Below the pieces are notes generated by a model. It saw only the letters and a program-made list of their open reading frames with translations, had not been told where the DNA came from and made no database searches. Below are positions 7,910-52,900 of a stretch of DNA of 64,000 bases, piece after piece. A program made the position numbers and the translations under genes. Source of the DNA: Siphonodentalium dalli (taxonomy: Eukaryota; Mollusca; Scaphopoda; Gadilida; Siphonodentaliidae); assembly GCA_032622095.1 (NCBI GenBank), contig CP136062.1:37324918-37388917 (forward strand), given 5' to 3'. The first letter of the stretch is position 1. Every line of letters starts with the position of its first letter.

Positions 7910-10290
7910 ATGTCAATATCAACATTCATGACAGGTTTCATAATGATCGGATCAGGGATGTGGTGATTATGGTGTGCCAAAGGATTTAGTGATGCAAAGA
8001 GTAAATTCTAAAATGGCCACCGGCAGCCATGTTTTTTTCCGAATTACCCCAAAATGACCTGTTCCCATCTACAGCCTTTACAAATCTCATAATGATCTGA
8101 TCAAAGATACGACCTGTAGCCTGTGCCAAAGGATTTAGTCATGCAAAGAGTAAAATCCAAGATGACTGCTGGCCTGACCTGTGGCCCGTGCTGATAGATT
8201 GAATTTTGAAAACAAAGATGGCTGCTGGCGGCCATGTTTTTTGTCCGATTGACCCAAAAATGACTCGTTTCCCATCTACATGTCAATATTAACATCCATG
8301 ACAAATTTCATGATGATCAGACTAAAGGTACGACCTGTAGCCCGTGCTAAAGGATTTTGTCATACAAAGAGTAAATCCAAGATGGCTGCTGGCGGCCATG
8401 TTTTTGGGCCGAATGAACCCAAAATTACTCGTTCCCATCTACATGTCAATATTAACATCCATGACAAATTTCATGATGATCAGACGAACAATGCGACCTG
8501 TGGCCCGTGCTAATGGATTGAATTTTGAAAACAAAGATGGCCACTGGCGGCCATGTTTTTTGTCCAAAGGACCCCAAAATGACTTGTTCCCATCTACATT
8601 CCAATTTCAACAGCCATGACACATTTCATGATGATCAGACTAAAGGTACGACCTGTAGCCCATGCTAAAGGATTTAGTCATACTAAGAGTAAAATCCAAG
8701 ATGGCTGCTGGCGGCCATGTTTTTTGCCCGATTGACCCCAAAATAACTCGTTCCCATCTACATTCCAATTTCAACAGCCATGACAAATTTCATGATGATC
8801 AGGCTAAAGGTACGACCTGTAGCCCGTGCTAAAGGATTTAGTCATACAAAGAGTAAAATCCAAGATGGCTGCTGGCGGCCATGTTTTTTGCCCAAATGAC
8901 CCAAAAATGACTCGTTCCCATCTACATGTCATTTGTTAACATCCATGACAAATTTTATGATGATCAGACTAAAGGTACGACCTGTAGCCCGTGCTAAAGG
9001 ATTTAGTCATACAAAGAGTAAAATCGAAGATGGCTGCTGGCGGCCATGTTTTTGGGCCGAATGAACCCAAAATTACTCGTTCCCATCTACATGTCAATAT
9101 TAACATCCATGACGAATTTCATGATGATCAGACGAACAATTTGACTTGTGGCCCGTGCTAATGGATTGAATTTTGAAAACAAAGATGGCTGCTGGCGGCC
9201 ATGTTTTTTGTCCAATTGACCCAAAAATGACTCGTTCCCATCTACATTCCAATTTCAACAGCCATGACAAATTTCATGATGATCAGACTAAAGGTACGAC
9301 CTGTAGCCCGTGCTAAAGGATTTAGTCATACAAAGAGTAGAATCCAAGATGGCTGCTGGCGGCCATGTTTTTTGGACGAATGACCCAAAAATTACTCGTT
9401 CCCATCTACATGTCATTGTTAACATCCATGACAAATTTTATGATGATACGATCAATGGTACGATCTGTAGCCTGTGCTAAAGGATTTAGTCATGCAAAGA
9501 GTAAAATCCAAGATGGCTGCTGGCGGCCATGTTTTTTGGCTGAATGACCCCAAAATTACTCATTCCCATCTACATGTCAATATTAACATCCATGACAAAT
9601 TTCATGACGATCAGACGAACAGTACGGCATGTAGCCGTGTTAATGGATTGAATTTTGAAATCCAAGAATGCCGCTGGCGGCCATGTTTTTTTTCCGAATG
9701 CCCCCAAAATGACTCGTTCCCATCTACATTCCAATTTCAATAGCCATGACAAATTTCATGATGATCAGACTAAAGGTACGACCTGTAGCCCGTGCTAAAG
9801 GATTTAGTCATACAAAGAGTAAAATCCAAGATGGCTGCTGGCGGCCATGTTTTTTGCCCGAATGACCCAAAAATGACTCGTTTCCCATCTACATGTCATT
9901 GTTAACATCCTTGACAAATTTTATGATGATCAGACTAAAGGTACGACCTGTAGCCCGTGCTAAAGGATTTAGTCATGCAAAGAGTAAAATCCAAGATGGC
10001 TGCTGGCGGCCATGTTTTTTGGCTGAATGACCCCAAAATAACTCGTTCCCATCTACATGTCAATATTAACATCCATGACAAATTTCATAACGATCAGACG
10101 AACAGTACTGCCTGTAGCCCGTGCTAATGGATTGAATTTTGAAATCCAAGATGGCCGATGGCAGCCATGTTTTTTTTCCGAATGACCCCAAAATGACTCG
10201 TTCCCATCTACATGTCAATGTCAAGAGCTATGACAAATATATTTTATAATGATCCGATTAAAGATACGACCTGTAGCCCGTGCTAAAGGA
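7910..10290 (+). repeat. Tandem array of 155-167-bp units, about 14 copies
   Basis: Each unit has CCAAGATGGCTGCTGGCGGC, CATGTTTTT, GACTCGTTCCCATCTACAT and GATGATCAGAC. Two unit subtypes alternate (GTCATACAAAGAGTAAAATC or GGATTGAATTTTGAAAAC). It ends in a tail at 10290-10380 with a GGACGACGGATACC run and a GCTCAAACTTTAC / GTAAAGTTGAGC hairpin, so it is probably an amplified retroposon 3' region. Confidence 0.93.
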
Positions 10291-13857: not shown

Positions 13858-14818
13858 TAATAACAACTTATTATCTGAACATTTCTTATGGGATAACTAC
13901 TCATCAATGATGCTTTAGTACAGAAAGGGTTAAACTTATTATCTGAACATTTCCTATGGGATAACTACTCATCAATGATGCTTTAGTATAGAAAGGGTTA
14001 AACTTATTATCTGAACATTTCTTATGGTATAACCACTCACCAATGATGCTTTAGTATAGAAAGGGTTAAACTTATTATCTGAACATTTCTTATGGGATAA
14101 CTACTCATCAATGATGCTTTAGTATAGAAAGGGTTAAACTAATTATCTGAACATTTCTTATGGTATAACTACTCATCAATGATGCTTTAGTACAGAAAGG
14201 GTTAAACTTATTATCTGAACATTTCTTATGGGATAACTACTCATCAATGATGCTTTAGTATAGAAAGGGTTAAACTTATTATCTGAACATTTCTTATGGT
14301 ATAACTACTCATCAATGATGCTTTAGTATAGAAAGGGTTAAACTTATTATCTGAACATTTCTTATGGGATAACTACTCATCAATGATGCTTTAGTATAGA
14401 AAGGGTTAAACTAATTATCTGAACATTTCTTATGGTATAACTACTCATCAATGATGCTTTAGTACAGAAAGGGTTAAACTTATTATCTGAACATTTCTTA
14501 TGGTATAACTACTCATCAATGATGCTTTAGTACAGAAAGGGTTAAACTAATTATCTGAACATTTCTTATGGGATAACTACTCATCAATGATGCTTTAGTA
14601 TAGAAAGGGTTGAACTAATTATCTGAACATTTCTTATGGGATAACTACTCATCAATGATGCTTTAGTATAGAAATGGTTAAACTAATTATCTGAACATTT
14701 CTTATGGGATAACTACTCATCAATGATGCTTTAGTGTAGAAATGGTTAAACTAATTATCTGAACATTTCCTATGGTATAACTACTCATCAATGATGCTTT
14801 AGTGTAGAAATGGTTAAT
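13858..14818 (+). repeat. Tandem array, ~63-bp unit, about 15 copies
   Basis: Unit contains GAACATTTCTTATGGGATAA and CATCAATGATGCTTTAGTA then AGAAAGGGTTAAAC. Units alternate between GGGATAAC and GGTATAAC variants in a higher-order pattern. Two to three units only in copy 1 (1545-1690). Confidence 0.95.
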
Positions 14819-19943: not shown

Positions 19944-22900
19944 CTGTGAAGGGAAGGTGTTATATATATGTGTTCGAAAAACAGAAAAATACGGAAGAAT
20001 TAAAAACATTCAATAATAAATTATGTATTGTTCTTGAACCCTTTACCCAACAGAAGGGCCCTGTGCCAATGCATTCTCTAACATATGCGAGTCGACCATA
20101 GGTCGCCTCGCATATATAAGAGAATGCATTGGCTTAACACATTAAAAATTATAAAATTGTTAAAGAATGTAAGAAAAAATGGTAAAAAGTGTTAAAAAAG
20201 GTTTTTTTTAGGCCAATGTATTCTCTTATATATGCGAGGCGACCTATCGTCGACTCGCATATATAAGAGAATGCATTGGCACAGGGCATAACTGTAACTA
20301 TCACAATGTGGTCAAGGAGCCGGTTCCAATGATATCCATATTTGTATGGTTCTATTGAGACAGACCGAAGATATTTTAGGCTGTTGAAGCTTTATTTGGC
20401 CGGTTTTGGCCGGTTTGTTGTACAATACATACCGATTACGTCAACAATGTCAATGGCGACGTCAACTATAACATAAAATTTCTTCACTAAATTATGAGGT
20501 ATATCCTACATTAAGCGCTCATTTGTTCAATAAATAAAACAATATCAACCTAAATTTTAGTATATTTCAAGCTACAATCATCAGAGTGTGCAATAAACAT
20601 AGAACAACGCAGCTTTGTGAACATGTTAACGTTATTGCACTCATTTGTCGTCCCGCGAGGTAAAACTCGAACCTCCATATAATCAGATTCCAACAACATC
20701 AACATTTTTAGAAATGCCGCTTCAGTTATCAGAATCGATTAGTTGCGCAAAAAAATGCTAACCATGCCAGAAACGTGTTATTTATGAATATGTTGTTTGA
20801 TGAAATTTGGCCTTATTATCAACAGAAAGCCTCTTGATTTTAGAGTTATCCATCTTCATCCGCAATTTGGTCCGAGACCGTTGGCTCGTCGACTGTTTAC
20901 TGGGCCACTATTAAGTCTCGATGGTGAAAAATAATAGATTTCAAAATTTGATATCTAATAACTCTGAGCTTTGATAGGTGGGTTCCTCGACTCGAATCAA
21001 ATCATGTTTACCCCCGAATCCAAATAAATAGTAATTGAGGGGCGCTTACTCGGATTATGCATCTTTAACTTAAAATCTGTGTGTTTGAAATTAAGGATAA
21101 CAAAAATGTGATAAATATCAGTCCTGATTCAATATATATGTTTAGTATCTTTGGTGAACATGGGACTAAAATTAATATTTTATCTATAATATCTCGCACT
21201 ATCTTTAGCCAGGAGTTGTGTGTGAGACAAATTCCATTGCTACAGTAATGCTCTAATTAAACGACTCCTTAACTTTTCAGGATTTAGTCGGAAATATGGC
21301 TTGTTGCCATTCATTGGAAAGCTCTCCCCGAGAGCTTTCCGATGAATGGCAACAAGCCATATTTCCGAGTGGTTAAGAGGTTGATTAATTACAGCATTAC
21401 TGCTATATCCCTAAAAATTATTGAAATTAGTATACCATTACTACCTCCATTTTCTCTATATCCTCTTTGACTTTTGTTCGGTCAAATCTGTTCTTGAGTA
21501 GAGCGTACACGAAGCCGCCTCCCCCTGCACCCGCCACGCAGCATCCATACACGTACGGACGGAGAATGTTCATAAGGTCAGCAATGAGCTTCGGTTCACA
21601 TCCAGGCGCCATCACCTTCTTCAGCCTCCAGTACAGATCAAAGCAGAGCCCGACTGTTTCAAAATCACCTGAAGGCAGGAAAAACCATTTGCAGAATGAG
21701 GTCTCCGGAGGGTGAATTTAGTGATGCTATCCCGCACAGTGAATTATCTATAGTCTCAAATTAACATTGTAAAAAGTCTGCAAATAGTGTGTCTGTAATT
21801 TGCAGAATGAGGTACCAAGAGGGTGAATTTGGTGATGCTATCCCACACAGTGGGCTAGCATCACTAAATTCACCCTCTAGGGACCTCATTTTTCTTAGGC
21901 TTCATGTACTGGGAGTATATAGTCTAAAATTACATTTTCCCTACTGTTCAGTTTCTATATCCCCTAATTTGCAGAAGATAGAATGCATAATTGAGGTGAC
22001 TAATGGGTGAACATCACCAACTTCAAACGGGGAACTTCAATCTGATCCAAGGTCTCCCATAGCAGTTGATACCTAAGCAGAAAGAAGTTCCCAGAGAGTG
22101 AATTTGAGAGCCATGCGGGATACATCACTAAATTCACCCCCTGTGGACCCCATTTTGTAAATGTCAGATACACTATATCCAGGCTTGCCAACAAGAGTCC
22201 GCCAGGCATGGCATAATATTAGGGCCCTGCGAATCGGAACTTTTCCACATATTCAAATTCTGATATCGAATCAGGAAGCTGATATCGATATTGCACCGGT
22301 ACATAGTGTATAAGACTTCAAAGTTATTCCCGAATTGAGTTCCTATATGGCACCGGGGAATGTTCAGTGTATAGAGCATTTTGAAAGAAGATTGCATTAT
22401 ATGTGCAATTCTACGCTTGTATAATATATATATAGTAATGCCCTAATTAATCGACTCCATAACCACAGCAGAATTATGGGTAACTTTTCAGGATTTGTTC
22501 GGAAATATGGCTTGTTGCCATTCATCGGAAAGCTCTCGCCGAGAGCTTTCCGATGAATGGCAACAAGCCATATTTCCGACTAAATCCTGAAAAGTTACCC
22601 ATAATTATACTGTGGTTATGGAGTCGATTAATTAGGGCATTACTGTACAGTGCAGTCTTGCACTATGTTCAAGGTACCTACCTTTCACTAATGAGTTTGA
22701 ACACTTGTGTGCCAATTTGACCAGTTTGTCTTCTGTCACGACTATTTCAGGATTTCTGGCATACCAATTTCTCACTACTTCCTGGAAGTATAAGTAGGAT
22801 GAAACCAAATTACCACTAACTTACTGCTGCTGGTCGGTGTAGTAACATTTTACACAATCTTTCATGTGTCATAAACCAATCACAGACCAAACAAATAGTA

Positions 22901-25900
22901 AAAGGGCTGCTTCATTGAAAAGACACTTTGACACAAAAATTATATTATGTAAACACCACATGTAATCCTTCCACCTGTCGATACTATAAAATGTAGTAAG
23001 AATAACTACATATTGATGCATATATGGCAAATTTTGGTACACCGAAAAAAATCACAACTTTTGTACCCTGTTGTTACGTCGGGTACATTGGGTGCAACCA
23101 TAAGTAACCATTTGTACCCATGGGCCTGAAAGTAGTTCCGGGAATATGTTTTCTAATTTGTACCCAATGTCACTTTGGGATTTCTGAGAAAAAAAGAAAA
23201 AAAAGTAACAAACGTAACATTATCTAATATGTAAAGTAACCATGTGTACCCTATATACCATGGGCTGTAAAGTAGTTCAGGAAAATTATTTTCTAATTTG
23301 TACCCAATGTAACCAGGTACCTTGGGATTTCTAAGAAAACAAAAATAAAAGTAACAAATGTATTACATTAACTGGCAGGTAAAGTAAAAAGTTGTAAGCT
23401 ATGTACCAATGGATTGTAAATTAGTTTCAAAAATATGTTTTCTAAGTTTCTAAATTTGTGCTTATGAAATGTACCCAATGTGCCCTACGTAACAACAGGG
23501 TACAACAGTTCTGATATTTTGCTGCGTACCAAAATTAGACATATCTATATTGATGGGGTGTTAGAATAACTACATCTTGATGAGGGGGTGTAAGCTTTTC
23601 TAAACCTTATAAGCGACCACTAATTGTGAGGCTCTCCTGAAATGAATGGTAGTGAGTCAACAATAGTTTAAACTTAATAGTGGAGTTGAAAAGTCACTTG
23701 CCAACACTTTTGCCAAATGAAAATATTTTTTGCCAAATGATAACTATTTTTGCATTTGTCAACTTTGGCAAACAGCAGTGCGAACCCAGTATAGAAGTGA
23801 AGTGTATTTGGAGGGCTAACCTGGAGTAAGTTTCTGGCTAGTCTCGTCTTCCCCGTGTAAATAAGGATGAGTTTATCATTAAACTCCTTCATTATCTCCG
23901 CACTTATTTCAAGAGGTAAACATTCCACTTTAAGAGGAAGTTCGGCGGCTGATGTACCCAGGTTAATCCCACCCATCAAACCACCGATCTGGTCCTGCCA
24001 GCCACCGCCCGTCGTCAGTAACTGCTCAAGATAGAGAATCTGAAATAAAAATATCACATTTAAATTCCTAACATTTTCTATTTCATTCCTTCCTCACTGA
24101 GAGCTTTCCGATGAATGGCAACAAGCCATATTTCTGACTAAATCCTGAAAAATTACCCTTAATTCTGCTGTGGTTAAGGAGTCGATTATTTAGGGCATTA
24201 CTGTAATTGTGCACCTGATTTTGGATACACTTTGTACAAGACCAGTTTTATTATGGAACTCAAACAGTACTTACACAGTGTACAAGACTAGTTTTATCAC
24301 AAGTTTGTCCAGAGGCCCGGAGTAATGTTTCCATGACAGCACCAGCTAAGATACTGCTGGTCCCAAGGCCGGATCCGTAAGGTAGATTGGACCATGTCTG
24401 TAACTCAAAACCTCCACCGTAGTTATCCGTTAGCTGAGTCTGGAGTGATGTCGAGGAATTTAGATTGACGATGTTGGCACATATAAAGGCAGCTTTCAGT
24501 AAGGCACCTGTCAATGAAAATTACATTTTCATTAGAAAATACTTAATCCCTAATAAGACACTTGAATACTCAACTATATTGCATCTTAATTTCTATTCAC
24601 AAGGGGGATCTATGACACACTATGTAAATTTTATTATTTCGGTACGCAATAGCTTAAGTATGTTTTTGAACGTTACTCTTAAAACCGAAAGCGAGATCAC
24701 TAGTAAATTTAGATCATGTGTCATGTAGGCATTTAAATAGCTTTCATAGTTCACTTCTCCTTTTGTGCAAATGTCAGACATGCTACATACAGACATGGGG
24801 ATACCCCAACACACTATATGACCTTGACTAGATTATGAATGGGGTAACCATATTATAATATTAGACAAACAATGTAAAGAAACAAAAAATTGAGACGGGA
24901 AAAGCGAGGCAATAGCTTGATGTCATCTTATTTATATAATTTGTGTTTCTGCAAAGCAGGCTGTCATCATCAAATTCACCCTCTGGGAACCTCATTATGC
25001 TTTAAGCCCTTAACTTCTACGGGAGACCTGGGATAAGATTGAAGTTCCCCAGTTGAAGTTGGTGATTTTCACCCATTAATCACCTCCATTATTCATTTTA
25101 TCTTTGTTATAGAAACTGAACAGAAGGGCAAAAGTAACTAAAACAATGTTATTTGAGACTATAGATACTTCCCAGAAGATGAGGACTAAGCAGAATGAGG
25201 TCCCGAGACGGTGAATTTGGTGTCGAAGGAGGATTGGAAATAATATTAGATTCCAATGACAGAGCAGAAGATGGCAGGATGAATAGTATCCATAAATACT
25301 GTGATGCTAGCCCACTGTGCAGGGTAGCATTACTAAATTCACCCACTGGGGACCTCATTCTGCAAATGTCAGACAAACTATAGCCAGCAATTGAAGAACT
25401 AACTATTACCTGGTGATGTAGGTATATATTACCTGGTGATGTAGGTATATATTACCTGGTGATGTAGGTATACAGTAATCTATTACCTGGTGATGTAGGT
25501 TTAGAGTAATCTATTACCTGGTGATGTAGGTATACAGTAATCTATTACCTGGTGATGTAGGTATATATTACCTGGTGATGTAGGTATATATTACCTGGTG
25601 ATGTAGGTATACAGGTAATCTATTACCTGGTCCTGGTGATGTAGGTATACAGTAATCTATTACCTGGTGATGTAGGTATATATTACCTGGTGATGTAGGT
25701 ATAAAGTAATCTATTACCTGGTCCTGGTGATGTAGGTACACAGTAATCTATTACCTGGTGATGTAAGTATATATTACCTGGTGATGTAGGTATAAAGTAA
25801 TCTATTACCTGGTGATGTAGGTATATATTACCTGGTGATGTAGGTATATATTACCTGGTGATGTAGGTATATATTACCTGGTGATGTAGGTATATATTAC

Positions 25901-28900
25901 CTGGTGATGTAGGTATATATTACCTGGTGATGTAGGTATACAGTAATCTATTACCTGGTGATGTAGGTATACAGTAATATATTACCTGGTGATGTAGGTA
26001 TATATTACCTGGTGATGTAGGTATATATTACCTGGTGATGTAGGTATATATTACCTGGTGATGTAGGTATGCAGTAATTACCTGGTGATGTAGGTATATA
26101 TTACCTGGTGATGTAGGTATATATTACCTGGTGATGTAGGTATATATTACCTGGTGATGTAGGTATACAGTAATATATTACCTGGTGATGTAGGTATATA
26201 TTACCAGGTGATGTAGGTATATATTACCTGGTGATGTAGGTATATATTACCTGGTGATGTAGGTATATATTACCTGGTGATGTAGGTATACAGTAATCTA
26301 TTACCTGGTGATGTAGGTATACAGTAATCTATTACCTGGTGATGTAGGTATACAGTAATTACCTGGTGATGTAGGTATATATTACCTGGTGATGTAGGTA
26401 TATATTACCTGGTGATGTAGGTATATATTACCTGGTGATGTAGGTATACAGTAATATATTACCTGGTGATGTAGGTATATATTACCCGGTGATGTAGGTA
26501 TATATTACCAGGTGATGTAGGTATATATTACCTGGGGATGTAGGTATATATTACCTGGTGATGTAGGTATATATTACCTGGTGATGTAGGTATACAGTAA
26601 TCTATTACCTGGTGATGTAGGTATACAGTAATCTATTACCTGGTGATGTAGGTATACAGTAATCTATTACCTGGTGATGTAGGTATACAGTACTCTTAGG
26701 GCCCTGCGAACCTTATAATTTAGGTCGAACCGAACCTTGAAACCGAATCATCGTCTTGGTTTCGAATCGAACCGAATCTCGAACCTCGAACCCAATTACC
26801 GACCGTGTCATTGAAGAGAGTCCAAGCGACGTACTCATAATACTAGTAGCCAGTTAGAACGTATGTGGATCATTATAATAGTACAATCAACGTGTTATAT
26901 ACAAATTTATCGTATACGATATAAGATAATTACATGTTGAAGAATTATTTTATATTGGAGATGAATGACAATCCGATAAAACGTTGATTTTATGTTCCGT
27001 TTATGTCCATACATTATATTACATAACCCCGATTAAAACAAATATCCGATTATCATTCTCCGTATATACCCGCGTCCGCTCACTGAGCATCACTCATGAC
27101 AAATCATAACTTATGACTTATTCTAACAGTAAGTGAGACAGATGTCTGATTGAATCATCGGTCAAGCTTCCAATAGTAAATATGTACAATGTAAACAACG
27201 CGATAAACGACGCATTGAACTCCTAACACACTGACATCATGAACGCGCCACGTGGCATAACTCGGTAACTATTAACAGACTCGTCAATCTGTAACTGCGA
27301 CAACACATGACAAAGATCAAAGCGTGCCGACGTCGCGTTGTAGCAATTCAGTGTCATAAGACAAAGCACATCGGGTTACATAATCATGTCAATCATTTAT
27401 GCTGATAAACAATGGCCACACCTTCTCCTCACTGTGATTGGTTGACTCCAATTGTTGACACAGAAGGCTGCCGGAAATACCTATTCACTTTCAGCCAGTT
27501 TACGGAATTCAAAAAAGCTTGTTCGATCTGTATTCATCAATAATCATAACTTATTGTTTCGTTTGTTAGGTATAATTATGTCTATTAGTAAAGTTATATG
27601 GAGAATAAAACAAACTTTGACGAGGTAGAACTTTGACTGAGATAGAAATGTTATAGTTTTACTAATTAATTATCACGAATTTGACATGTCCGACTGTACC
27701 GTTTAGCGGGAGCGGAATAAAGTTATGCCAAAAGACCCGTTCAATGAAATATCACCCAGTTACCCCGCCCGAGTAATGATCAAAGTAATTATGTCCAATG
27801 TAAACATAAAATCATAGTATCACACAGTTGTATGTAAACCAATTAATATACGGTATATAATCAATAAACAATTCCCAGTACGCAAAATTTGCCCATTTTG
27901 CGGGACTAAAGAAAAGGTTCGATATAAACGAATCCCGTCTAAGGTTTCGAACCGGACCGAATCATCACGGCGGTTTCGAACCGAACCGAACCTCGAACGG
28001 TTCGCAGGGCCCTAAGTACTCTATTACCTGGTGATGTAGGTATATATTACCTGGTGATGTAGGTATATATTACCTGGTGATGTAGGTATATATTACCTGG
28101 TGATGTAGGTATATATTACCTGGTGATGTAGGTATACAGTAATCTATTACCTGGTGATGTAGGTGTACAGTAATCTATTACCTGGTGATGTAGGTATACA
28201 GTAATCTATTACCTGGTGATGTAGGTATACAGTAATCTATTACCTGGTGATGTAGGTATATATTACCTGGTGATGTAGGTATAAAGTAATCTATTACCTG
28301 GTGATGTAGGTATATATTACCTGGTGATGTAGGTATATATTACCTGGTGATGTAGGTATATATTACCTGGTGATGTAGGTATATATGACCTGGTGATGTA
28401 GGTATATATTACCTGGTGATGTAGGTGTACAGTAATTACCTGGTGATGTATGTATATATTACCTGGTGATGTAGGTGTACAGTAATTACCTGGTGATGTA
28501 TGTATATATTACCTGGTGATGTAGGTATACAGTAATCCATTACCTGCTAATATAGGTGTACAGTAATTACCTGGTGATGTAGGTATACAGTAATCACATA
28601 AATCTTTTGTTTCCTTGCATATGACCTGAGTTTCTTCACCATTCTGACCAGATATCTGCAGTATTATCTCTGGCCTGTCAAAATAAATAGAATTCTCTTT
28701 TCAGACTGAAAAGTGTGCCTTGGTTCCACCACAGATGCTGCAAGGATTTATATCACAGGTGGAGAAAAATGGCAAGCACTCAGATGCTGCGGTGCTGCGA
28801 TGTTAGACCCTTCTCTACTAGTTGAAGTGCTGTATAGGTCTCTACTACTCTAGTGTGAAAAAAATTAGCTAAAAACGCAAAGGGTTATATATATTTCATT

Positions 28901-31900
28901 CTCCTAATATTAATTGATAGATGCATTTCCAGACAGGGGACTTTGATTCCTATTTATTATTTCATACCCAGGAAATATAATATTTATAAATAATATTACT
29001 TTTTCCTTAAGGGAAGCCCGAAACTGAACTATATGGATGGATTACGTCTCCGGCCTTGTGTCAATCAGGAGGGTTAAAATTTTATTGCTGTGCCGACCCA
29101 CTCACACCCGTGTCCAGATTAGTCTCGCATGAATACACCCGCATTCTATCTATTGTCTAGTCAGTTTTTTATTTCCGACTTAATCATGAGATTTGCGAGT
29201 CGCGGGGTTGGGAATGGCACCACCATGGGAGGGATCTATGATAGTTCAGTTTCGGGCTTCCCTTAAGGAAAAAGTAATATTATTTATAAATATTATATTT
29301 TTCCGCCAAGGAGAAGCCCTCAACTGAACTATATGGATTAGAATGCAAGCCCAGGAGGAGGCACGAGCAATAAAGTTAATTAATATCCAAATTCGATGGG
29401 AATGTACTCTTCCGAAACAGGATTCATGTAAATGTGATTTAGTCATGAATCAGATATGATTATGTTACGTGAAAGAGCTCCCAATTCAGATTACGACATT
29501 GCTCAAATGTGTACCGCCCCCCCCCCCCCCCCCTTGTTTTTGGAATAAACATCCCAGGTAGTGCCATATAATTCATGCTAGCGAGACAACCGAGCAAGTA
29601 TAACTTTGCTTCATCCTATTCCCTTTGTTATCTTCTTCGCTCTCTCGACAGTTCACATTATGAACTGATGTCACATGCAGCCATTGTGTATGCCATAAGA
29701 TATCAGAATGCTTATGATACACCAGGGAGCAAATTAACTGGAATCGCATCGCGATTTGCTACTGAAATGTGGATACCGGTAATAGCGAGGAATTTTTTAT
29801 ACATGTATGATGTTATAAAAATGGTATCTAATCATGTCAATGTGAGATTATTTGCTAATCAAATATCGAAAGTAAATTGCTCCCTGTGATACACAAACCA
29901 GATATAAAAATGATATGCTGCAGATATCATAGCTCCAGCCTCGTATAATGTAGAGAGCAGGGAACGCCATCATGATCCAAGGTAGCATTGCATACCAGTA
30001 TATATGGGATTAGAGAACACCCCTGAGGACTTGATGAACAAGCATAGAAGCATCAGTGATCTATGATGGCGCACATAACGAGTGTCGGGTACATTTCGAA
30101 ATGATCAAATTTAGCAGAATGATCAAAATTGCAAAATGACCGGTGAAGGAGTGGCCTGGAGGTATCCCGAAGGTATTACGATTCCAGGAGATTGGACCCC
30201 ATCGTGTGGAGATGTGGGCCACTGCACTGTGGGGAAGAGATAGAAGGCTGGTTGGTGCAGCTCTTGGAGGCACACAACAAGTCTTCCCCACCCAGAACAT
30301 TCAGCCTTTCTTTCCTACCGGCGAAGGAGTGGCCTGGAGGTATCCCGAAGGTATTACGATTCCAGGGGATTGGACCCCATCTTGTGGAGATGTGGGCCAC
30401 TGCACCATGGGGAAGAGTTAGAAGGCTGGTTGGTGCAGCACTTGGAGGCACGCAACAACAAGTCTTCCCCACCCAGAACATACAGCCTTTCTTTCCTACC
30501 GGTGGAGGAGTGGCCTAGAGGTAACCCGAAGGTGTACGATTCCAGGGGAGTGACTGGACCCCATCTGTGGAGATGTGGGCCACTGCACCGTGGGGAAGAG
30601 GCAGAAGGCTGGAGCAGCTCTTGGAGGCACGCAACAACTCTTCACTTCCCCAGAACATCCTCCAAAGGCTACAGTGCAGGATCTTTCCTGACTGAGATAA
30701 ATACTTGTACTTATCGCAAATTGTTGAATTAAATGAAGCAATATAAGATATCAACCTGTATCCTCATCCTGTACAAAATCACTTACCAGCGGAACATCAG
30801 AATCCTCGTCCGACAGTGTGCCTGGTGACCCACTGTCGACCCGCGATTCTTGCTCATCGTCGTCAAACCTGCCGACGCCACGCGATGCAGAGAGGCATGT
30901 CAAGATCGACGCCAGCCAACAGAATGGGCTGCATCAGGTTGGGATACCAGACTGTGGAAGAGGCCTACTCTGAAATGATTCGACGTAAGACAAATGCTCT
31001 TGCATTTGGGATAAGTAGCTATGTCCTGTCCAAGGTCACCCCCTCAAAGTCTGGGGCACGAGCAATGGCAAATGTATAATAAGCTGTACCCCCAAGGCCA
31101 GAGGGAATTAGTTCCGATGAGCCATTCGATCAGAGGAAGCCCCTTCCATGGAATCCCCCAAATGCAGTTGGTCCTGACCAAACTGGAATAAATGTCGATG
31201 ACATACCACTATGATCACATGACGGCGGAGGAGCAGGCCCGGATGTATCCCGAAGGTATTACGATTCCAGGGGATCGACTGGACCCCATCTTGTAATGAT
31301 GTGGGCCACTGCACCATGGGGAAGAGTCAGAAGGCCATTTGGCTGGTGCGCTATGTCTATGAGAGCAAGAGCGTCACGTGACAACGAGTCTTCCCCACCC
31401 AGAACAGCCGCCATAGGCTACTCCCAGGTGCCCAATAATTGTGATGACCTATAAACAGATCTTCGTGGCATGAATCCAGGCCGAAATCAAATACTGATAG
31501 AAATTTCACTCTATGTGGAATAATAGTAGATCGATGTGAATTGTCTCGAAATTTAATAATCGTATTGCCACTACCATTAGGCACCTGAGAGAAAGGTGCT
31601 GGAGCAATCGCCCGAGAAGATTGGTTTCCCGAATCAACCACTTGCAGCACCCGCCTACCATTGGTTCACACTGCCGTAGCAGGACCGGGTGGGGCCTGAA
31701 CTGGTCCTGCCCGAGGTAAAGACTGGTACGGTTGCTCAAAGTAGGTAATCATTGACTAATATGCCCTCACCCAACTATAACAAGTAATACACCCGTGAAT
31801 GAGCAACCCGCACTGTGTGGCCAGCAAATTCGAATCACGTTCGACTGCAAGACATGCTGTTAGTTATAACAAAGCAAGGTTAATAGACATAATACAATAC

Positions 31901-34900
31901 AATCTGTAGGTTATTGAGTAGAAAGTAAGGTTAATATAATTACGTTATACCCCTGGCCACGTGATCTTACCTGCTATGACAGGTAAGATACTGTCTTTTC
32001 TCGTATATGAGGACGATGAGTTCCGAATGCACATAGGCAAGAACTAGGCGGTTTCCGTTAGGCAAGAGCGCTTACAGCGGACGTGAAGATACGAATGCCT
32101 TCATTTTCGTCATGATTGTATCGAATCGTTTTGTCACATAATCAGTGGATATGTGACAATAGACGAAGAGCCATGTCTTGGCCGCATCGGAAATATATTG
32201 GCAGTAGATGTGCGCAATATAAACGCTGTGCATGTAAGCTCGCCTTAGACATGTAACAATACAAATGCACTTAATGCAGTCCTTTCTGATATTCTGCGCA
32301 ATATAAATGTGTTGCATGTAACTGTGCATCATACACGAGTGAAAGCTATTTGGCAGAATATCGTTTTGATATATGTGGAAATAGAAGTTAGTGAGCCAAG
32401 TGATGGTCTCTACTGGAAAGACTATTGGCAGTGAATCTGGAGCACGTGACAATATGTATTCTTTCTATTTCGCTGTTTGCCGTTATCATTCACTGATGAA
32501 ACTGCAAAGTATGTCAGTATTGGGATGAAAACTGTTCACCATATGTAAGCATACTAGTAGTCAGTTCTGACAGCATACATGAGGCCCTGATACCATATGA
32601 TTGTCATGTACAATGTATGGAACTATTACGGCGTGCAATACATTATTGCAAGCTCGCCAATGCCGAGGCATATTAGATCCTACGGTAAGATGGCATTGAG
32701 GCACTTAAACCATAATATGTCAATGGGACCGAGAAGTTGAATGTATCGACAAACACTAATGTCTGAGGATAAAAGGTCAGATGTGTCAAGTTGGTGACAT
32801 CTGCTGATCACAGTCGTTACATCACAAAGATTGTCAATTCTAAGTGCCAACGGCGGATGTTATGAAGGAGAAACATCAATCGAATGAAAATTCAGTGAGA
32901 TGCTGGCAAGCCAATAAATCGTTGCAACACCCTGACCATGTTGTGAACAAGGTGTGCCATATTGAAGACGAAGCTTTCCCTTATTGGCCAAGTTCCCATT
33001 GGAGATGGTTACTCTCCACAAGTAGGCCAGTGGTCTCACTTCAAGTCGAACATCCAAGATGGCTCCAAAATGTTCTTACCATGGGTAGAATCACCATTGT
33101 TTAAGTAAAGTGAGCCAAGTGTAGCTGTTTCTCTTTGAGTGTCAGGCTACAAAGTTTTCACTTCATTGCAGTTGGTGATCAATATTTCGTAGTAACCCAA
33201 ACTGTACATACATGGATGTAAAGAATGCAACACAATATTTAGATCGTCAGACAACACATCAATTTGAAGTGTGGTTATATATGTGATAACGAATACCATC
33301 CCCCTGTTACGGAGTGTTAGTAACTATTGTACTGATGATACAATGAGTTATATGATATTTAATCGTGATAGACAAGGCAGAATTTTCTAAATACCTTGAA
33401 GTCGCTGTAATGTTTTATTACATTTGCCATGTGTCTAACAAGACCACACGCTCATACATACTGGCGGGCGTACATTCGCAGGTATTGATCGTTAAAATAA
33501 TGTTACAGATCGCTCAGTCGAAAGAAATGTGAATTGTCATCTGGAGTGATAACAAGTACTATCTTTCGTATTTATTCATGTAAATTATTACAAAGGAGGA
33601 TATGGCTGTCCTGTGCAACTTTCTGCGAATTAACAGAGCAGTGCCATGTATGATTTGGCAGTATACATTATGATACAAAGCAACGGAACTTACGAAATAA
33701 CCGAAGCGAGTCGACGGAAACTTATGTAAAGTGAAACACGTGTAGCACGAAATTAGGAGATATCGCATACCGTACTACATTGCGTCCTCAATTGTAAGTC
33801 ATGATAGTCATCACGCCGTATGTGTGGCACAATATGCACTATGTGGTTTTGCCACAAGTAAGCTATGTGCATCTTTAGTCATTGTCAAGATGGCCATCTT
33901 AATTCCAATTGTTGTTGTTGTTGTTGTTGTTGGCATCATAATCATCTGTAGCTGATTAATGTCACTGGTGCATTAACTGCTGGTGCTGTATTCACTAGGT
34001 GCTATACTCTGTATTGTTGAAAGATAAAAGCCGTCTTGAGGAAAACAAAAAACACGGAAACAAATTACGGATACAGTGAAACGAAAAAAGTTCCCGTTTC
34101 GGATGTGAGAAATATTAATTAACTATCGGGTACAATAAATTGCAAGTTTGTAATATCAACAATAAATATTGAGTCGATAAACTCGCAACACAGAAAGATA
34201 CAACCTTGAGAAAATAGAAACGATCCTGTCCTGGCGAGGAGGAATAAAAACTGACTAGACAATAGATAGAATGCGGGTGTATTCATGCGAGACTAATCTG
34301 GACACGGGTGTGAGTGGGTCGGCACAGCAATAAAATTTTAACCCTCCTGATTGACACAAGGCCGGAGACGTAATCCATCCATATAGTTCAGTTGAGGGCT
34401 TCTCCTTGGCGGAAAAACTATATAGATTGTGTAGCGGAAGAGATAATCCACCTTTATCAATTTTTATAATTTTTTCTAACATTCTATAACAATTTTTATA
34501 ATTTTTTCTTATATTCTTTAACAATTTTATCATTGTTTTTTTATCATTTTTTCTTACATTCTTTATAAAATTTTCTTAAATTCTTTAACAATTTTTATTA
34601 TTTTTTACCATTATCTCTTATTAACAATTTATTTTTTTCATTTTTTTCTTGCACTCTTTAACAATTATAAATAATTATATAAAATTTGTTAGGTCAATGC
34701 ATTCTCTTATATATGCGAGGCTACCTATGGACGACTCACATATATATAAGAGAATGCATTGGAACAGGGTTTTTCAACAAATTAGGAAGCTCCCGTCATG
34801 AAAAGTTTAAATTTATTTGTTGAATATTCCTCCAAATGATTCAATGGGAAAATATAAATACTCATCAGCATCACATCTATTTATTTGTTCAAACGTCAAA

Positions 34901-37900
34901 TTTAAACATAGATACGTCAGAACAAGTAATGTATGGTCACATATACAATTTCGGAGGCAGTACTTTGTACTTTTACAATGTAATAGTAGATCCGATCTCT
35001 GTCAATATTTGCCCCCTGTTCAGACTGATACGCTTCCCAACTCTCGATGCTCCCACAGACAAGGTGGTTAGGTTGTGGATAAGATCATCGCCGTCTGGAC
35101 TTGAAGAGGTTGGTGCGAATTGAACCACGACATGGGACGAAAATCAGGACCGATTTTCAAACTTGATCTGAGTTGAGCGACATCTCAGTGTGCCATTCCA
35201 ATCGACACATGACCATTTTGAGATGAAATGAGAATTTGTCCACACTCACTGAAGCAAGCATACAGTAATGCCCAATTATTCGACTGCTTAACCACAGCAG
35301 AATTATGTGTAATTTTTCAGGATTTAGTCGGAAATATGGCTTGTTGCCATTCACAGGAAAGCTCTCGGGAGAGCTTTCCGATGAATGGCAACAAGCCATA
35401 TTTCCGACTAAATCCTGAATAGTTACTGTATTTGAAGCAATTAAAACTCATACTGAGGCAGGGCCTCCATACAGCTATGCTCTCATTAAGCGACCTGTTT
35501 AACGAGGTTATGGCCCGGTACTTACCGCGGTGATACCACCAAAATACCGCGGTTATCATTTGTACCGTGGTGGAGGGCGGTTGACCCGCAGTACTGGTAC
35601 AGTATTTTTACTGTTGGTTACCGCAGGTCACCGTGTTATTGGTGTTCGTTACCGCCGTACACCGCGTTATTTTTTTCGTGACTGCGTTCAATTTACCGCT
35701 AACGGCCATCCACCGCGGAGAGAGAACACGTCTGAAACAAGGCGTCATATGGTGGGTAAATGATTATGGATAACTTCTGTATTGAATGAATACCTGTAAG
35801 CTGCACATAATTATGTATACGTAATGAATATAAATGAATAATAATGCAATCGGAGTACATATGGGCAAAGTACAAAGTCAGGTTTACATGTAACATATTA
35901 CAAATTTACACGTTTAATCTCATGTCATGTATATATGTGAAATATTTTTACCAGTAAATCAGATTATTAGAATATGTTTTAACCACGTCGGCGGTTTTTG
36001 AACTCAGCTATAGTTGCTTATGGCGATTACGCAAAGCATCATGGAGTAATAGTTTTGTTGTTAGCATCTATCTTACATATCATCAAATGATTTACGCACC
36101 CGATTCCTATACCGGTTTCCACTCATGCCGCGTCATGCGGAATTTTTTGTTTGTGTTTCCGAAATCTAAATTTCTTACAAAATTGGAGAAGTAAATCAGC
36201 CATTTATCTGAATTTGGTCAAAACCAACGAGGACGGTGAAGGCCAGGGCGGCGTTCATTGCAGATATATTTCATATTTGTTCAAATCGTCATCAACGGAA
36301 GGAATATTTAAAAATCTATAGTTTTGTTCATATGCCAAACATAATCGGCATGTAAATAGTATATTGTCGTCAAGACGTACGATTGTACGCATGCGTGAAA
36401 TAGTAAAGCAATGTACAAACATTTGCACCTCAAGATTTCTTGTCGGTGGGAATAAATGTATAATTAAGAAAGCGTGGCACATGTCATGCAGCAAAGTTGT
36501 TATCACTGTCAATGTGCGCGACAAAAGACACACACAAAACACCAAACATGGAAAGACACAACATTGTTTGATGTGAAATTGCAACATTGGTGATGGCATG
36601 CACTTGTGCGTTCTCGGTGTTCACAGTATAAATTATATTCCTATCTAATCGGAAGAAAAACATGCACAGCGTTGGAAAGTGGAAAAGTTTACCTCTAAAT
36701 ATGTTTGTTTGGTTATATACAGAGGTTAACATTGGAACATAATTAATGTAAGTGGTAGTTTATTCCCGATATGGTAGCAATAAAGAGCGTTTGTGTCACT
36801 TTTGTTTCACAAATATTTATAAATAGCTATTACGGGCAAAATATTTTAAAGATCGAATGAGCCTTGTCTGTTTAAAGCCACATGGCGGTTTGCTTTCCAA
36901 AATACACATAATATTATTCGCAATACCAAAATAGATCGATAAATATCTGTGCGTTCTCTGTGTTCGCAGTATAAATTTCTACGAGCATTATGTAAGCTAA
37001 ACGGACGCACTGAAGTAATGAAAATACAAGTGTCCAAAACACAAAACAGCCATTCGCGCGTCCCGTGTGTAGTTTTACTGATAGCACCATCAACAAAACA
37101 CAAATATTTATTTCACCCATTGAGGCCAGTTATAAAAAGACATGACAACATCTTATATTAACAGTCTACCAGCTGGAGTATGACGTAATCAGTGACATGT
37201 CCTTTTGCACATAATGTATTTGTTTTCCCTGGATATACGGCAGTTCCACTTTGTGTCTTTTATTGCTAAGACAGTAATTCCCTTTATACGAATAAATGGT
37301 GCTTGTGATTTGAAGTTAATGAATGTCAATAAAGTTAACAATATTTATTTTGGGTACTATTTAAATTATAGTTATCATTCAATTTGGGGATCACATACAT
37401 CTGAACATTGATATAAACTATAGACTATAGATACAGGATTTACTGAGCTGTCTAAAATGGCCAAAATCATTTGTTCCCTTCCCGATAACCCACACTGCTT
37501 ACAAATAGTGTCATCTATGGGAATTTTGGGCAATAAAACAACGAGACTAGAAGTGTTATTATAATATTATAATATTCACATTTAATTGAAAAATTACTTT
37601 CTCAAAGTAACTTATAGGCCTACTTACCTTTATATAATCTGGAAGCTTGGTATATTTCCCGATACTCGGCTTTCATCTATTTCAATATTTTAATAATACA
37701 CTTCATGGTACACAATCATGGATGGAGATCGCGAGAACGGCCGTCCTATTTTGAAAGATTGACGGTCAGACATCAAATCCCGTCATTAACCTTGTTACAA
37801 AAACGCTACCGCATAGCGGTAATGTCACCATGTTTGTGCGGTGCATTACTGCGTGGCACTGCGGTACCAACATCCGTTACCGCTTGCAGTGCGGTGGTAC

Positions 37901-40900
37901 CGCGATGTCCGCGTGGTAGTGCAACCGCGAATCGGCGGTATGTCGCGGTACTGCACCGCGGTATTAACGCATGAACACCTCGTTAAAACAGGTCGCTTAC
38001 TTTGAGCAGTGCTGTATATCTGATAGATATGATGACGATATAAATTTTTCGAGAAAACAATGAGAAATAGTATGTCTGTCATTTACAGAATGAGGTACCC
38101 AGAGGGTGAATTTAGTGACGCTATCCCAAATTCACCCTCTGGGGACCTTGTCCTGTTAGGCCTCAACTGCTATGGGAGATCTAGGATCAGATTAAATTTC
38201 TCCAGGGAAGTTGGTGATGTTCCCCCATTAGTCACCTCAATTGTGCATTTTAACTTCTGCAAATCAGGGGATATAGAAACTGAACAGAAGGGAAAAAGTA
38301 ACTAAAAACAATGTTAATTTGAGACAATAGATACTTCCCAGAAGATGAGGCCTAAGCAGAATGAGGTTATTAGAGGGTGAAATTGGTGATTCTAGGAGAG
38401 AAAGGTGAGAGATATTTTTATGACTTACTGCTCAATTCTTCTTGCCTTGGCACCAACTGGTCTCTGAAAAAATAACAATTATTAAATGGACATGGCTCAT
38501 TCGAGATTCCACATTTTGTCTACGTAATTTGGAAGGAGGTATAAGATAGGTTGACAAATACATGAAATATTGATAAACCAGCTTCATGTGCTCTGAAAAA
38601 TACTTTCCATGGCACAGCCATATTCCAGCTGTTTTAAGTTTTTCGTCATAAGTGAAACAAATGCTCTTTAATTTCTACCATATCAGGAATAGACTAACAT
38701 GGAACGCGCTTTTCAATGGAATCCTATTAGGGCCACTTGCTAATGGCGCTTTTGTCGCTTTCGGCGCGTGCCGAAACATACCCTAATGGCGCACTTTTTG
38801 TCGCTTCCGGTGCGCGCCATTAGGGAGTGGACCTAATAGTATGCCTAATGGCGAAAATACACCTAATAATATTCGCTTTTGAATTTCTCCCGGGATCGAA
38901 ATAGTTTGATAAAAACTTGACCTACCTTTCTACAGGTATTACTTTTCCCAGAAAGACGAATTGAAGTCATAAATATACAACTGTGGACACGCTGTTCGGG
39001 TCCCAAACAAACAACCATGTGCACGGCATGGAACAGAAAAGTATGGAATCCTATTAGGGCCACTTCCTAATGGCGCTTTCGGCGCACGCCAAAAGCGACA
39101 AAAAGTGCGCCATTAGTATCACGCCGAAAGCGACAAAATGTGACCCGTTACCGGCGTGCCGAAACATGCGCTAATATCGCACATTTTGTCGCAAAAAAGT
39201 GCGCCGAAAGCGACAAATAGTGCGCCGTAACGGCGCATATTTTGTCGCTTTCGGCGTGTTACTAATGGCGCACTTTTTGTCGCTTTTGGCGCGCGCCGAA
39301 AGCGCCATTAGGAAGTGGCCCTAATAGGATTCCATACTTTTCTGTTCCATGCCGTGCACATGGTTGTTTGTTTGGGACCCGAACAGCGTGTCCACAGTTG
39401 TATATTTATGACTTCAATTCGTCTTTCTGGGAAAAGTAATACCTGTAGAAAGGTAGGTCAAGTTTTTATCAAACTATTTCGATCCCGGGAGAAATTCAAA
39501 AGCGAATATTATTAGGTGTATTTTCGAGCGCAAACCGCCAAGTGGTTTTAATTATTAACAGGTCACGATCAAATTCACGGCTATTTGGAAGTAAAACAAT
39601 ATACAAGTGCAAAAGTGATCGCAATTTAAAGATGGACTATCTCTTTTTATAACAAATTTTAGGTAGTTTCCTGGTTAGGAAATATGACATATGAGTTGGA
39701 AATCCCTGCCCGGAAACGATTCTGTCCATTAATATTGATTATATTTCGATATTATCTATTATAAAATTACAAATATGGTATCAATTAATGGGCCATATAT
39801 TTGTTACTATATATAGAACTTTTGGATAGAGACCTCCAGCATGGTGCTCTATTAAATATTAAGTGCGATTCAAGTAGACAAGATCTAGAGCATAACATAT
39901 ACTTATTATCAATAATTAAAATAACTAAAAACTACAAATATAAAAGACGGTCGTGAATATCAGAGACCATTATTGAATGGCACAGAGTTATTTTATAGGA
40001 AAACAAATTCCAAATAAAATCAATATTAATTGATAAGACATGTTTCCAGACAAGGGTCTTCGATTCATATCTATTATTTATACCCAGGAAACTATAACTC
40101 ATGTTGCAGAAGAGATAACCCATCTTTAAACAAATTTGCCGCCGAATAATTCAACGCACAGGACAGACTGATACATGTAATAATGATGAAGAACTAACTT
40201 CGTTGAATATATATCTCTATACATACCAAGCCATTGATGAGAATAGAGACAATCGCTACTGCTCCTGAGTGTTCGTACGTGATGGGCGGAGTATCTGACC
40301 ATCCACCTGAGATGTCGATTCGGGCCGGACACTCGGCAGTTACCCACATCCCTACTGCTGGTTTCGGTGATGGTTTTGTGTAGAAGAACTGGGATCAGGA
40401 AAATACAATTTCAGGTAATAAAACAAAATGACTGTAACAAGGAAAAACAATATGTATGAATCGAGAAAAGTGTCCATGACAACGAAGCATACAATAGGTT
40501 GTAGCTCTGTTAACCTCGACTCAAATCGAATTTAGTGAACTCGGTTGATAAATTCCGTATAAAATAGAAACTCAGGTGAGATCCTCTAATTATAAACTCA
40601 CGTTTTTAGCTGACATAACAGCTTTCCTAATAAGGATCTGAGCAGCACCCTCGTAATGTCGTGCAGCTCTCACCAGTTTGTCCGGCCGATCTAACCATTT
40701 CTGTCTTTCGTTCTTCAGAGCTTCTATTCCGCTCACAACATCAGCATGCTGAAGAGAAATTAATTAAAGGTTAACCCTTTCATGATGGGGAAAGAGCTGG
40801 TGCAGCATTAATGATCCTGTGCCAGTGCATTTTCTTATATATTGTTCCTGAAACTTTTGCCAATGTATCGTCTTATATATGCGAGGGAGCATCACATATA

Positions 40901-49900: not shown

Positions 49901-52900
49901 ATCCCATCCGATAATGGTACAGAAATTATACCTATATGTGGCACCGATGGATATAGATCAATAAAATTCGAATTGGGGGCTCAGCTTTGAGATAAAAGTG
50001 CTGAACCCCAAAATTGGGCCCTTAAAATGGATTTTTTTTTGGTTTTTGGCAATTATCTTAAAAACCATTGACTTTTGGATATGAAAATGTATTACTGACC
50101 CCCCATAATGTGGCCATTCCGCACATTTTGAGTGGTCACACGACCCCCTTTGGCCAACGGTTCTGGAGATATAGTCACGGCGGGTGGTAGTACTTCGCGC
50201 AAAAAGGGGCGTGGCCATTTGACCCATTTCGCCCTCAATGGGAAATGTGTCACCAACCAAATATTGTTCGTGACCTTCAATTAGTGGATTCGTGAAGAGT
50301 TTTGCTCTGGACATAAAAGTGCATACAAAACGCCCTCAGCTACTAGAGTATATATAAAATCAACCTATATTTTTTAATTACGATTATTGAGTTGAATGCA
50401 AAATAAATTCTCTGAACTACTAATATCATAATAACATATAATTCCTGAATAATTCATGCGTGACCAAAAACACGTGCCACACAAACATGAATTGTACTTG
50501 AAAGAGCAGTCTGCGTTAAAATCATGACGTCATGGATTTCCACTTAACACGGAAAGTGCCAAAGATTTGAATTTGACGCATCGATAGTGTGTCTGTCTGT
50601 GTGTCTGTCTGAATAAAACATGAATAACATCCATTCCTTGAATTACAGTAATGCCCTAAATAATCGACCCCTTAACCACAGCAGAATTTTGGGTAATTTT
50701 TCAGGGGGGGGGGGGGGGGGGTCTGAATTTTTCAGGATTAAATGGCCATATTTCAGACTAAATCCAGAAAAATTACTCATAATTCTGCTGTGGTTAAGGA
50801 GTTGATCAATTAGGGCATTACTGTGATTCATTCGCAAATTTAGTCGCTAACTCATCTGGACAAATTTATTTGATTCAGACGGATGTGCAAATGTCAGACA
50901 AACTACATTCAGACTTGATGCGTGAGTGCAAAGGGTTGGAATTGAGGTATGTCATGCAACCGAGCCTGCAAATAGTGTGTCTGTCATTTACAGAATGAGG
51001 TCCCCAGAGGGTGAATTTGGTGATGCTAGCCTGCTATGCAGGGTAGCATCACTAAATTCACCCTCTGGGGACCTCATTCTGCAAATAACAGACACACTAT
51101 TTCAAGGCTTGCATGCAACCATACTTACAGTATGTACCCCCCGCAGTGTGATTGCTAGTCGAGTGGCGCTCACCACTCATGTTATATGGCGAGATTAAGT
51201 ACGAGATAAAAATCATGTTAGAATATCAACAGATATCAGAAAAAATATTCAGTTTCAGAAAAATAGAGTCTTTGTTAGTATTGAGTTTATGCTATATTAT
51301 AAAGTGTTATAGAGAGATTTGGTGGTATAGAGCTTTTCAGCACTCGTGTGGTGTGAACGTTCATCTCCTCTTCAGTAAGGACACACAAAGGCGCATCACT
51401 TATATTTACTCTTTGTTTTTCACTTTTTTCTGGTAATTTCCATGTATGTATATTCTACCTACTAGTAATGTATCAATTGTGTAACAAACATATTTAATGT
51501 GCCTGACATATGCAGAATTTGGTCCCCAGAGGGTGAATGTAATGACTCTATCCCGCTAAGTGGGCTAGCATCACCAAATTAACCCTCTGGGTGTCTCAAT
51601 CTGCTGGGCCTCATCTTCTAGGAAATAACTACAGTAATGCCCTAAATAATCAACTCCTTAACCACAGCAGATTTATGGGTAATTTTTCAGGATTTAGTCG
51701 GAAATATGGCATGTTGCCATTCATCGGAATGACTAATGGGTGAACATCACCAACTTCAACTGGGGAACTTCAATCTGATCCTAGGTCTACCATAGCAGTT
51801 GAGGGCCTAAGCAGAATGAGGTTCCCCGAGGGTGAATTTTGTGATGCTAGCCTGCTGTGCGGGATAGCATCACTAAATTCATATGCAGGTTTGCTTGAAA
51901 GTTCATTCACCTCTAATAATTGGAATGCTTTATTCCATTTCTGGTTCGCTGCAGGTCCACTTCGGAGTCCTCCCTTCCTTCCTGCCATGCAGCCCAGAAC
52001 ATCAGCAATGTTAGCTAACGCCCGTGCGATAATCTCCGCAGAATCACTAGCTAAAGCAACTGTAAAACAGAACATTGGAAATCATAAACAAGGCCTCCGT
52101 TATATGGTAATATACACAGAATTACTGGCAAAGGCAATTGTAAAACAGAACATTGGAAATCATTATCAAGGCCTCCGTTATATGGTAATATACACAGAAT
52201 TACTGGCAAAGGCAACTGTAAAACAGAACATTGGAAATCATGATCAAGGCCTCCGTTATATAGTAATATACACAGAATTACTGGCAAAGGCAACTGTAAA
52301 ACAGAACATTGGAAATCATAAACAAGGCCTCCGACATAGGGTAATATACACAGAATTACTGGCAAAGCCAAATGTAAAACAGAACATTGGAAATCATAAA
52401 CAAGGCCTCCGTTATATGGTAATATACACAGAATTACTGGCAAAGTCAACTGTAAAACAGAACATTGGAAATCATAATCAGGGCCTCCGTTATATGGTAA
52501 TATACACAGAATTACTGGCAAAGTCAATTGTAAAACAGAACATTGGAAATCATAAACAAGGCCTCCGACATAGGGTAATATACACAGAATTACTGGCAAA
52601 GCCAAATGTAAAACAGAACATTGCAAATCATAATCAAGGCCTCCGTTATATGGTAGTAAACACAGCAAAAGAAGCTATTTGATTCTCAGGCTATTGTTTT
52701 TTTAAATCAATGTGGGAGTGAGGGTTTTATTTTTATTTTATTTTATTTTTTCTGCCCATAGTTAGTATGGGTTATTACACCTTCCCAGGGAAAACTTTAT
52801 AATGTATATTAGAGCTGAAACGGTTGACCCATTCTTCTAACCGGTTAACCATCGGGGTTAGCCGGATTTCAACCGGTTAACCGCTAATTTATAGTGGACT

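Follow-up and report, generated by a model that had tools for sequence, protein, structure and literature searches.

Minisatellite-like tandem duplications of exon/intron boundaries, termed mirages, have been described in amphioxus in Adh3, in the globin genes BflGb6 and BflGb9, in troponin C and in PGBD5, where regular splicing is reportedly undisturbed (PMC3087553; PMC3902484). In a stretch of 64,000 nucleotides from the scaphopod Siphonodentalium dalli (assembly GCA_032622095.1, contig CP136062.1, positions 37,324,918 to 37,388,917 of the forward strand; hereafter the window), an array of this kind opens an intron of an FCSK-like gene. Like the amphioxus mirages, it consists of short tandem units (10-72 bp in Adh3) that lie across an exon-intron border and carry the exon end with its splice signal, but it comprises 71 copies at one border against the 6 and 3 units given for two BflGb6 haplotypes and, unlike the mirages described in amphioxus, it contains a hAT-like insertion and stands in a genome of 2.2 Gb and 9 contigs. 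The FCSK-like array is a large example of an already known type, and what it adds is that such arrays turn up repeatedly in one large genome, in conserved genes. The literature consulted showed no survey of mirages across a whole genome that was recognised as such, a weak negative given its limited coverage.

Turri, Cuin and Porter reportedly described in 1995 a minisatellite with multiple splice donor sites in human IFI6 (also 6-16 or G1P3). According to what a citing paper relates, two downstream repeat units act there as donors and give rise to extra isoforms (PMC4526556). IFI6 is a functional relative, its repeat unit supplying donors after a coding exon as in the FCSK-like array; yet IFI6 reportedly uses its downstream repeat donors, whereas stops are predicted from 69 of the 71 donors studied here.

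The array spans positions 25404 to about 28594 of the window, and its 71 donor-like junction copies, the exon's own copy included, bear out the minisatellite of some 70 units that a preliminary description, made from the letters of the window, had placed after exon J. The extent of about 3.2 kb given there also holds, although not all of it is repeat, since the ~3.19 kb divide into 1,868 bp of repeats (1,292 + 576 bp) and a transposon of 1,318 bp at 26697-28014. Likewise, units of 23 and 31 bp are indeed present, but so are others: the copies are spaced by 23 bp (41 times), 31 bp (20), 27 bp (5), 37 bp (2) and 32 bp (1), with one larger interval where the transposon intervenes. The 31-bp unit, GATTACTGTATACCTACATCACCAG|GTAATA, joins 25 nt of exon, identical to the last 25 nt of exon J, to 6 nt of intron, as expected from the earlier statement that it combines the exon J end with the following GTAAT donor, and the exon copy lies 5'-most in the array, in line with an origin from the exon J/intron border. 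CAG|GTAAT is kept in 67 of the 71 copies (with A at +6 in 61, T in 5 and G in 1), while four are degenerate (CTGG in 2, CGGG in 1, GGTCAT in 1). The context from -14 to +5 is identical to the consensus in 60 copies and varies in 11, and donor 1 differs from most other copies only at +6. Over these 19 nt the second copy from the exon has three mismatches, copies 1-8 alternate between none and 1-3, copies 60 and 63 have five each and the last eight have none. When the whole genome was searched with an 18-mer core at one mismatch or fewer, 68 of 70 matches fell at this array, and the reversed control gave 0. The array thus starts at and duplicates the boundary of exon J, itself backed by an alignment to bacterial FKP (see below), it has AG/GT signals in many but not all of its units (67/71), and its units are of minisatellite size (23-37 bp), which are traits of a mirage.

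Long arrays with units of only 23-31 bp pose problems for assembly and a single assembly was available, so that the copy number might have been inflated or collapsed; the 11 variant copies, the insertion, flanked by a clean target duplication, that splits the array and the presence of arrays of the same type on other contigs nevertheless make such an artefact very improbable.

The gene lies on the minus strand, and its intron J-K, 4,063 bp long, opens with the junction minisatellite. In a phmmer comparison with PDB sequences the peptide of exons J and K matched three bacterial L-fucokinase/fucose-1-P guanylyltransferases (FKP; 9iip, 5yys and 9iit) with E values from 1.3e-6 to 4e-6, and the alignment, which spans query residues 23-105 and takes in 13 residues of exon J, is gap-free at the J|K junction. 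This homology, together with the Pfam domains GHMP_kinases_N and GHMP_kinases_C, agrees with the FCSK identity proposed in the preliminary description and makes FCSK-like a fair gene name; the symbol FCSK itself comes from that description's label and from general knowledge. Prokaryotic relatives of the J+K peptide were searched for and none was confirmed, the homology being anchored by the three PDB sequences alone, and a Pfam read-through of positions 28001-37998 found no domain at E 0.01, which leaves the upstream FCSK exons unmapped. Across the genome the only match to PF07959 (Fucose_pyrophosphorylase; E 5e-117) was a 529-aa single-frame stretch on C5 (G000:C5:170092350-170093660, minus strand), a separate gene distinct from the FCSK-like one.

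About 70 potential donors face one acceptor, that of exon K, as had been stated earlier. Splicing to exon K was simulated for 72 sites, the 72nd of which, TCGGTAATT, sits inside the transposon, and the J-K frame is predicted to stay open from donors 1 and 2 only, all others running into a stop; donor 2 would lengthen the exon by 27 nt and the protein by nine residues (NYCTPILAG). Since 28 of the 72 tested sites are in frame with exon K, frame alone does not explain the closed readings, and since 60 of the 71 copies are identical from -14 to +5, sequence cannot separate most donors, so that any use of donor 1 would have to be decided by position rather than by strength. Exon definition or a co-transcriptional first choice would make position decide in this way. 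Donor 1 is probably the native donor, judging from the gap-free alignment of J and K to bacterial FKP.

The likeliest account, to which we assign a probability of about 0.8, is that a minisatellite arose at an exon-intron border and has been tolerated, splicing proceeding from the donor next to the exon. The border between exon J and its intron would have been duplicated in tandem and, by unequal exchange or slippage, would have grown to the 71 junction copies observed today, a process that we infer from this anatomy. As the duplicated stretch holds both exon end and donor, the first copy would retain the normal exon and donor and later copies would fall in the intron. With the donor nearest to exon J, which the spliceosome may then pick, the exon is at its shortest (104 nt) and the protein matches bacterial FKP, while the remaining donors, near-identical and all except the second followed by early stops, would be silent or have their products destroyed. 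The hAT-like transposon, whose insertion is observed directly, would have landed later inside the array, which as a whole would be tolerated intronic DNA of the same type as an amphioxus mirage. Of the roles that the preliminary description had considered (tuning of splice choice, competition for U1, tolerance because the first donor wins), the last fits best, given near-identical donors and a predicted open frame from the first two only. Several points nonetheless weigh against this account. The use of donor 1 is deduced from homology and frame, with only 13 residues of exon J in the FKP alignment, and a minor isoform through the frame-keeping donor 2 is possible. The downstream repeat donors reported as active in human IFI6 also warn against assuming silence here (PMC4526556). 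Finally, the account is drawn from one assembly of this species.

If transcripts from downstream donors were lost to nonsense-mediated decay, the array could instead regulate FCSK output, its length tuning expression. The 67 intact CAG|GTAAT donors, the predicted stop after every donor beyond the second and the two downstream repeat donors that IFI6 is reported to employ (PMC4526556) would be compatible with such a role, but no sign of selection is seen beyond the intact donors, and these could result from homogenisation alone; the unit, moreover, is nearly confined to this locus (68/70 matches), and such arrays are found also in genes unrelated to FCSK; we consider regulation improbable.

Duplications of splice boundaries have also been linked to the gain of introns. 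In human segmental duplications, internal tandem repeats that lie at exon-intron boundaries, on average four units of 30 bp, are presented in this sense for young paralogues (PMC2812944); they share with the FCSK-like array a minisatellite expansion at a boundary that changes gene structure, although the human copies are few. Tandem AGGT duplications are on record for fission yeast and potato, within a published model of intron gain (PMC4974935), and here too copies of an AG|GT junction stand in tandem. Intron J-K could on this model be a new intron, made by duplication of an exonic AGGT segment (Rogers-type gain), and its AG|GT-bearing units do adjoin coding sequence. The acceptor of exon K, TTGACAG|GTGCC at 24507, lies however 896 bp past the array, outside the repeat, is not a repeat unit and is separated from the array by unrelated intron sequence, so that donor and acceptor do not both derive from repeat units and this origin is hardly credible.

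The insert that divides the array fits a young, non-autonomous hAT-like transposon. With non-autonomous elements of the hAT superfamily, to which we assign it presumptively on general criteria, it shares short terminal inverted repeats (TIR) and an 8-bp target duplication. Forty copies, its own included, were scored genome-wide out of 737 candidates, all with 98-100% identity; a perfect 8-bp target duplication flanks 10/10 of the other copies checked (among the 39 others scored), or 11/11 with the copy of the window. A hAT transposase reading frame is absent from the insert, whose longest stop-free stretch is 65 aa, and it would be at most a non-autonomous member.

Similar arrays occur elsewhere in the 2.2-Gb genome, which was searched for exact donor words occurring three times in succession at intervals of 8-38 bases, the reversed word serving as control. 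The triple of CAGGTAAGT gave 1350 matches vs 446 for its control, that of CAGGTGAGT 687 vs 181 and that of AAGGTAAGT 129 vs 197, while GTAATNNNNGTAATNNNN was uninformative as a search pattern. From the first 100 places listed per search 44 arrays were retrieved and 42 assessed, by a Pfam scan (E 0.001) of three reading frames over the 450 bases that precede the first donor; L003 and L013, like L066, were excluded since the array fills the whole retrieved piece, and a second array on C6 at 223.14 Mb (with the unit of L026), the 257.64-Mb block and further 231.98-232.06-Mb blocks of C1 and the far end of the control array on C8 lie outside the sample. A Pfam match precedes the first donor in 12/42 arrays, or in 10/40 with two duplicated pairs merged, and comprises the USP47 C-terminal domain, amino-acid permease (2 copies), TCP-1, MRP-S22, dynein lid, signal peptide peptidase, NIDO (2 copies), the middle domain of peptidase M16, aspartate/ornithine carbamoyltransferase and MFS; the duplicate copies L015 and L038 were placed by near-identical sequence. 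The Pfam curated score is exceeded by four of the ten distinct matches (USP47, MRP-S22, NIDO and MFS), the other six being short exons below it. In the nine that were scanned directly, 0-15 codons separate the end of the match from the first donor, and 0-5 codons in the case of TCP-1, signal peptide peptidase, amino-acid permease, NIDO, peptidase M16 and MFS, while USP47 was matched across the entire typed exon peptide.

In each of the 11 mirages that were measured (the ten distinct ones and a MYPT1-like one), between 13 and 45 nt of the exon end recur in unit 2; the lower bound of this range is partly built in, as copies were located by their likeness to that end. The name MYPT1-like is our presumption, that exon having no Pfam match; the exon that follows it keeps the frame, STQ|GVTL (STQ|GVTLEDVKKAEE). 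Unit length is not a multiple of three in 9/11, as expected if the downstream copies are intronic. About ten other genes of this genome thus appear to share the layout of the FCSK-like array. Nine further tandem-donor arrays (L012, L022, L027, L028, L032, L034, L036, L041 and L045) resemble exon ends by eye, with an open frame and, in some, an acceptor-like stretch upstream, and were left uncounted for want of an assignable Pfam match; for L045 there was none at E 0.1 either. Many blocks of one donor-bearing unit of 26 bp, CAGGTAAGTCTCGTACATACAACTAA, extend over about 80 kb (G000:C1:231979802-232057385) and may form a large satellite-like domain.

Whether minisatellites of this genome arise preferentially at 5' splice junctions, through a mutational or transcription-linked hot spot, depends on the controls. 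Two of the triple donor words exceed their reversed controls as given above, and single AAGGTAAGT sites are rarer than reversed ones (15,064 vs 52,574), yet the triple gives 24 arrays against 12 among the first matches listed (100/129 vs 100/197). Pfam matches are also more frequent upstream of arrays than of pooled single sites (12/42 vs 5/60, p 0.008). By a looser count of the pooled singles, however, the comparison weakens (7/60; p 0.03 against 12/42, and p 0.07 against 10/40 with duplicates merged), and the pool joins two samples: among single AAGGTAAGT sites from C1 0-14 Mb, 1/40 (taken from 100 listed of the 15,064) had a match, to a PHD domain unplaced relative to the site, but this region may be gene-poor, for which reason a genome-wide set was drawn, of 20 from the 34 sites of the 13-mer AAGGTAAGTGCAA. 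Those genome-wide sites alone are no different from arrays, with 4/20 matched (L117, L125, L126 and L127; p 0.35), or 6/20 when RT_RNaseH and an unplaced Acyl-CoA_dh_N are added (p 0.67). The 12 reversed-word arrays gave 23 ends retrieved and 22 assessed; three had Pfam matches (Extensin_2, DUF5100 and DUF7731), and with all kept the difference is 12/42 vs 3/22 (p 0.15), whereas dropping them, as low-complexity in appearance, leaves 0/22 (p 0.003). Moreover, the AAGGTAAGT triple is rarer than its control, and a reversed word may sit in repeat families and so be a poor control. A hot spot seems unlikely on this balance. We claim, from the sequences compared, that mirages recur in this genome, and not that junctions are preferred, because genome-wide single donors give a similar fraction. 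The broader proposal that mirages are a genome-wide class and no lancelet oddity, with the 5' splice junctions of conserved genes repeatedly seeding minisatellites, possibly as preferred sites, and dozens to hundreds of introns beginning with long rows of near-identical donors as a result, is tentative, and we lean against it.

The choice of the spliceosome among near-identical donors is usually studied with few engineered copies. One exon followed by some 70 native donors, of which almost only the first is predicted to yield the enzyme, would offer a setting in which to measure the error rate of a rule by which the first donor wins, and, if mirages did prove to be genome-wide, each such intron would be a natural experiment on donor choice, with position as the sole deciding factor. 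The array loci show how a minisatellite can extend over an exon border and leave the reading frame intact, and bear on models of both intron lengthening and intron gain.

Table 1. Features of the FCSK-like locus (positions in the window) and loci of comparable arrays elsewhere in the genome
Feature	Position or locus	Strand	Length	Remarks
FCSK-like exon J	28571..28674	-	104 nt	Ends ...DYCIPTSP-G; acceptor TTTTGACAG upstream; J+K alignment to bacterial FKP
Probable native (first) donor, CAG|GTAATT	28565..28570	-		Frame carried on into exon K; homology spans the junction
Exon-proximal minisatellite block, exon copy included	28019..28594	-	576 bp	
Putative hAT-like non-autonomous DNA transposon	26697..28014	.	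1,318 bp	TIR TAGGGCCCTGCGAACC; 8-bp target duplication AGTACTCT on both sides
Distal minisatellite block	25404..26695	-	1,292 bp	
FCSK-like exon K, sole acceptor partner	24275..24507	-		Pfam GHMP_kinases_N, 6.2e-6
Exon further downstream with GHMP_kinases_C	21454..21675	-		Pfam 8.7e-5; assigned to the same gene by assumption
Junction minisatellites at exon ends	L002, L005, L014, L015, L018, L019, L023, L026, L037, L038, L040, L042, L043			USP47-, MYPT1-, permease-, TCP-1-, MRP-S22-, dynein-, signal peptide peptidase-, NIDO-, M16-, carbamoyltransferase- and MFS-like genes

The window holds other sizeable tandem arrays, at 52039-52665 (unit of 78 bp), 56331-56724 (51 bp), 13865-14817 (68 bp) and 8176-10290 (about 160 bp).

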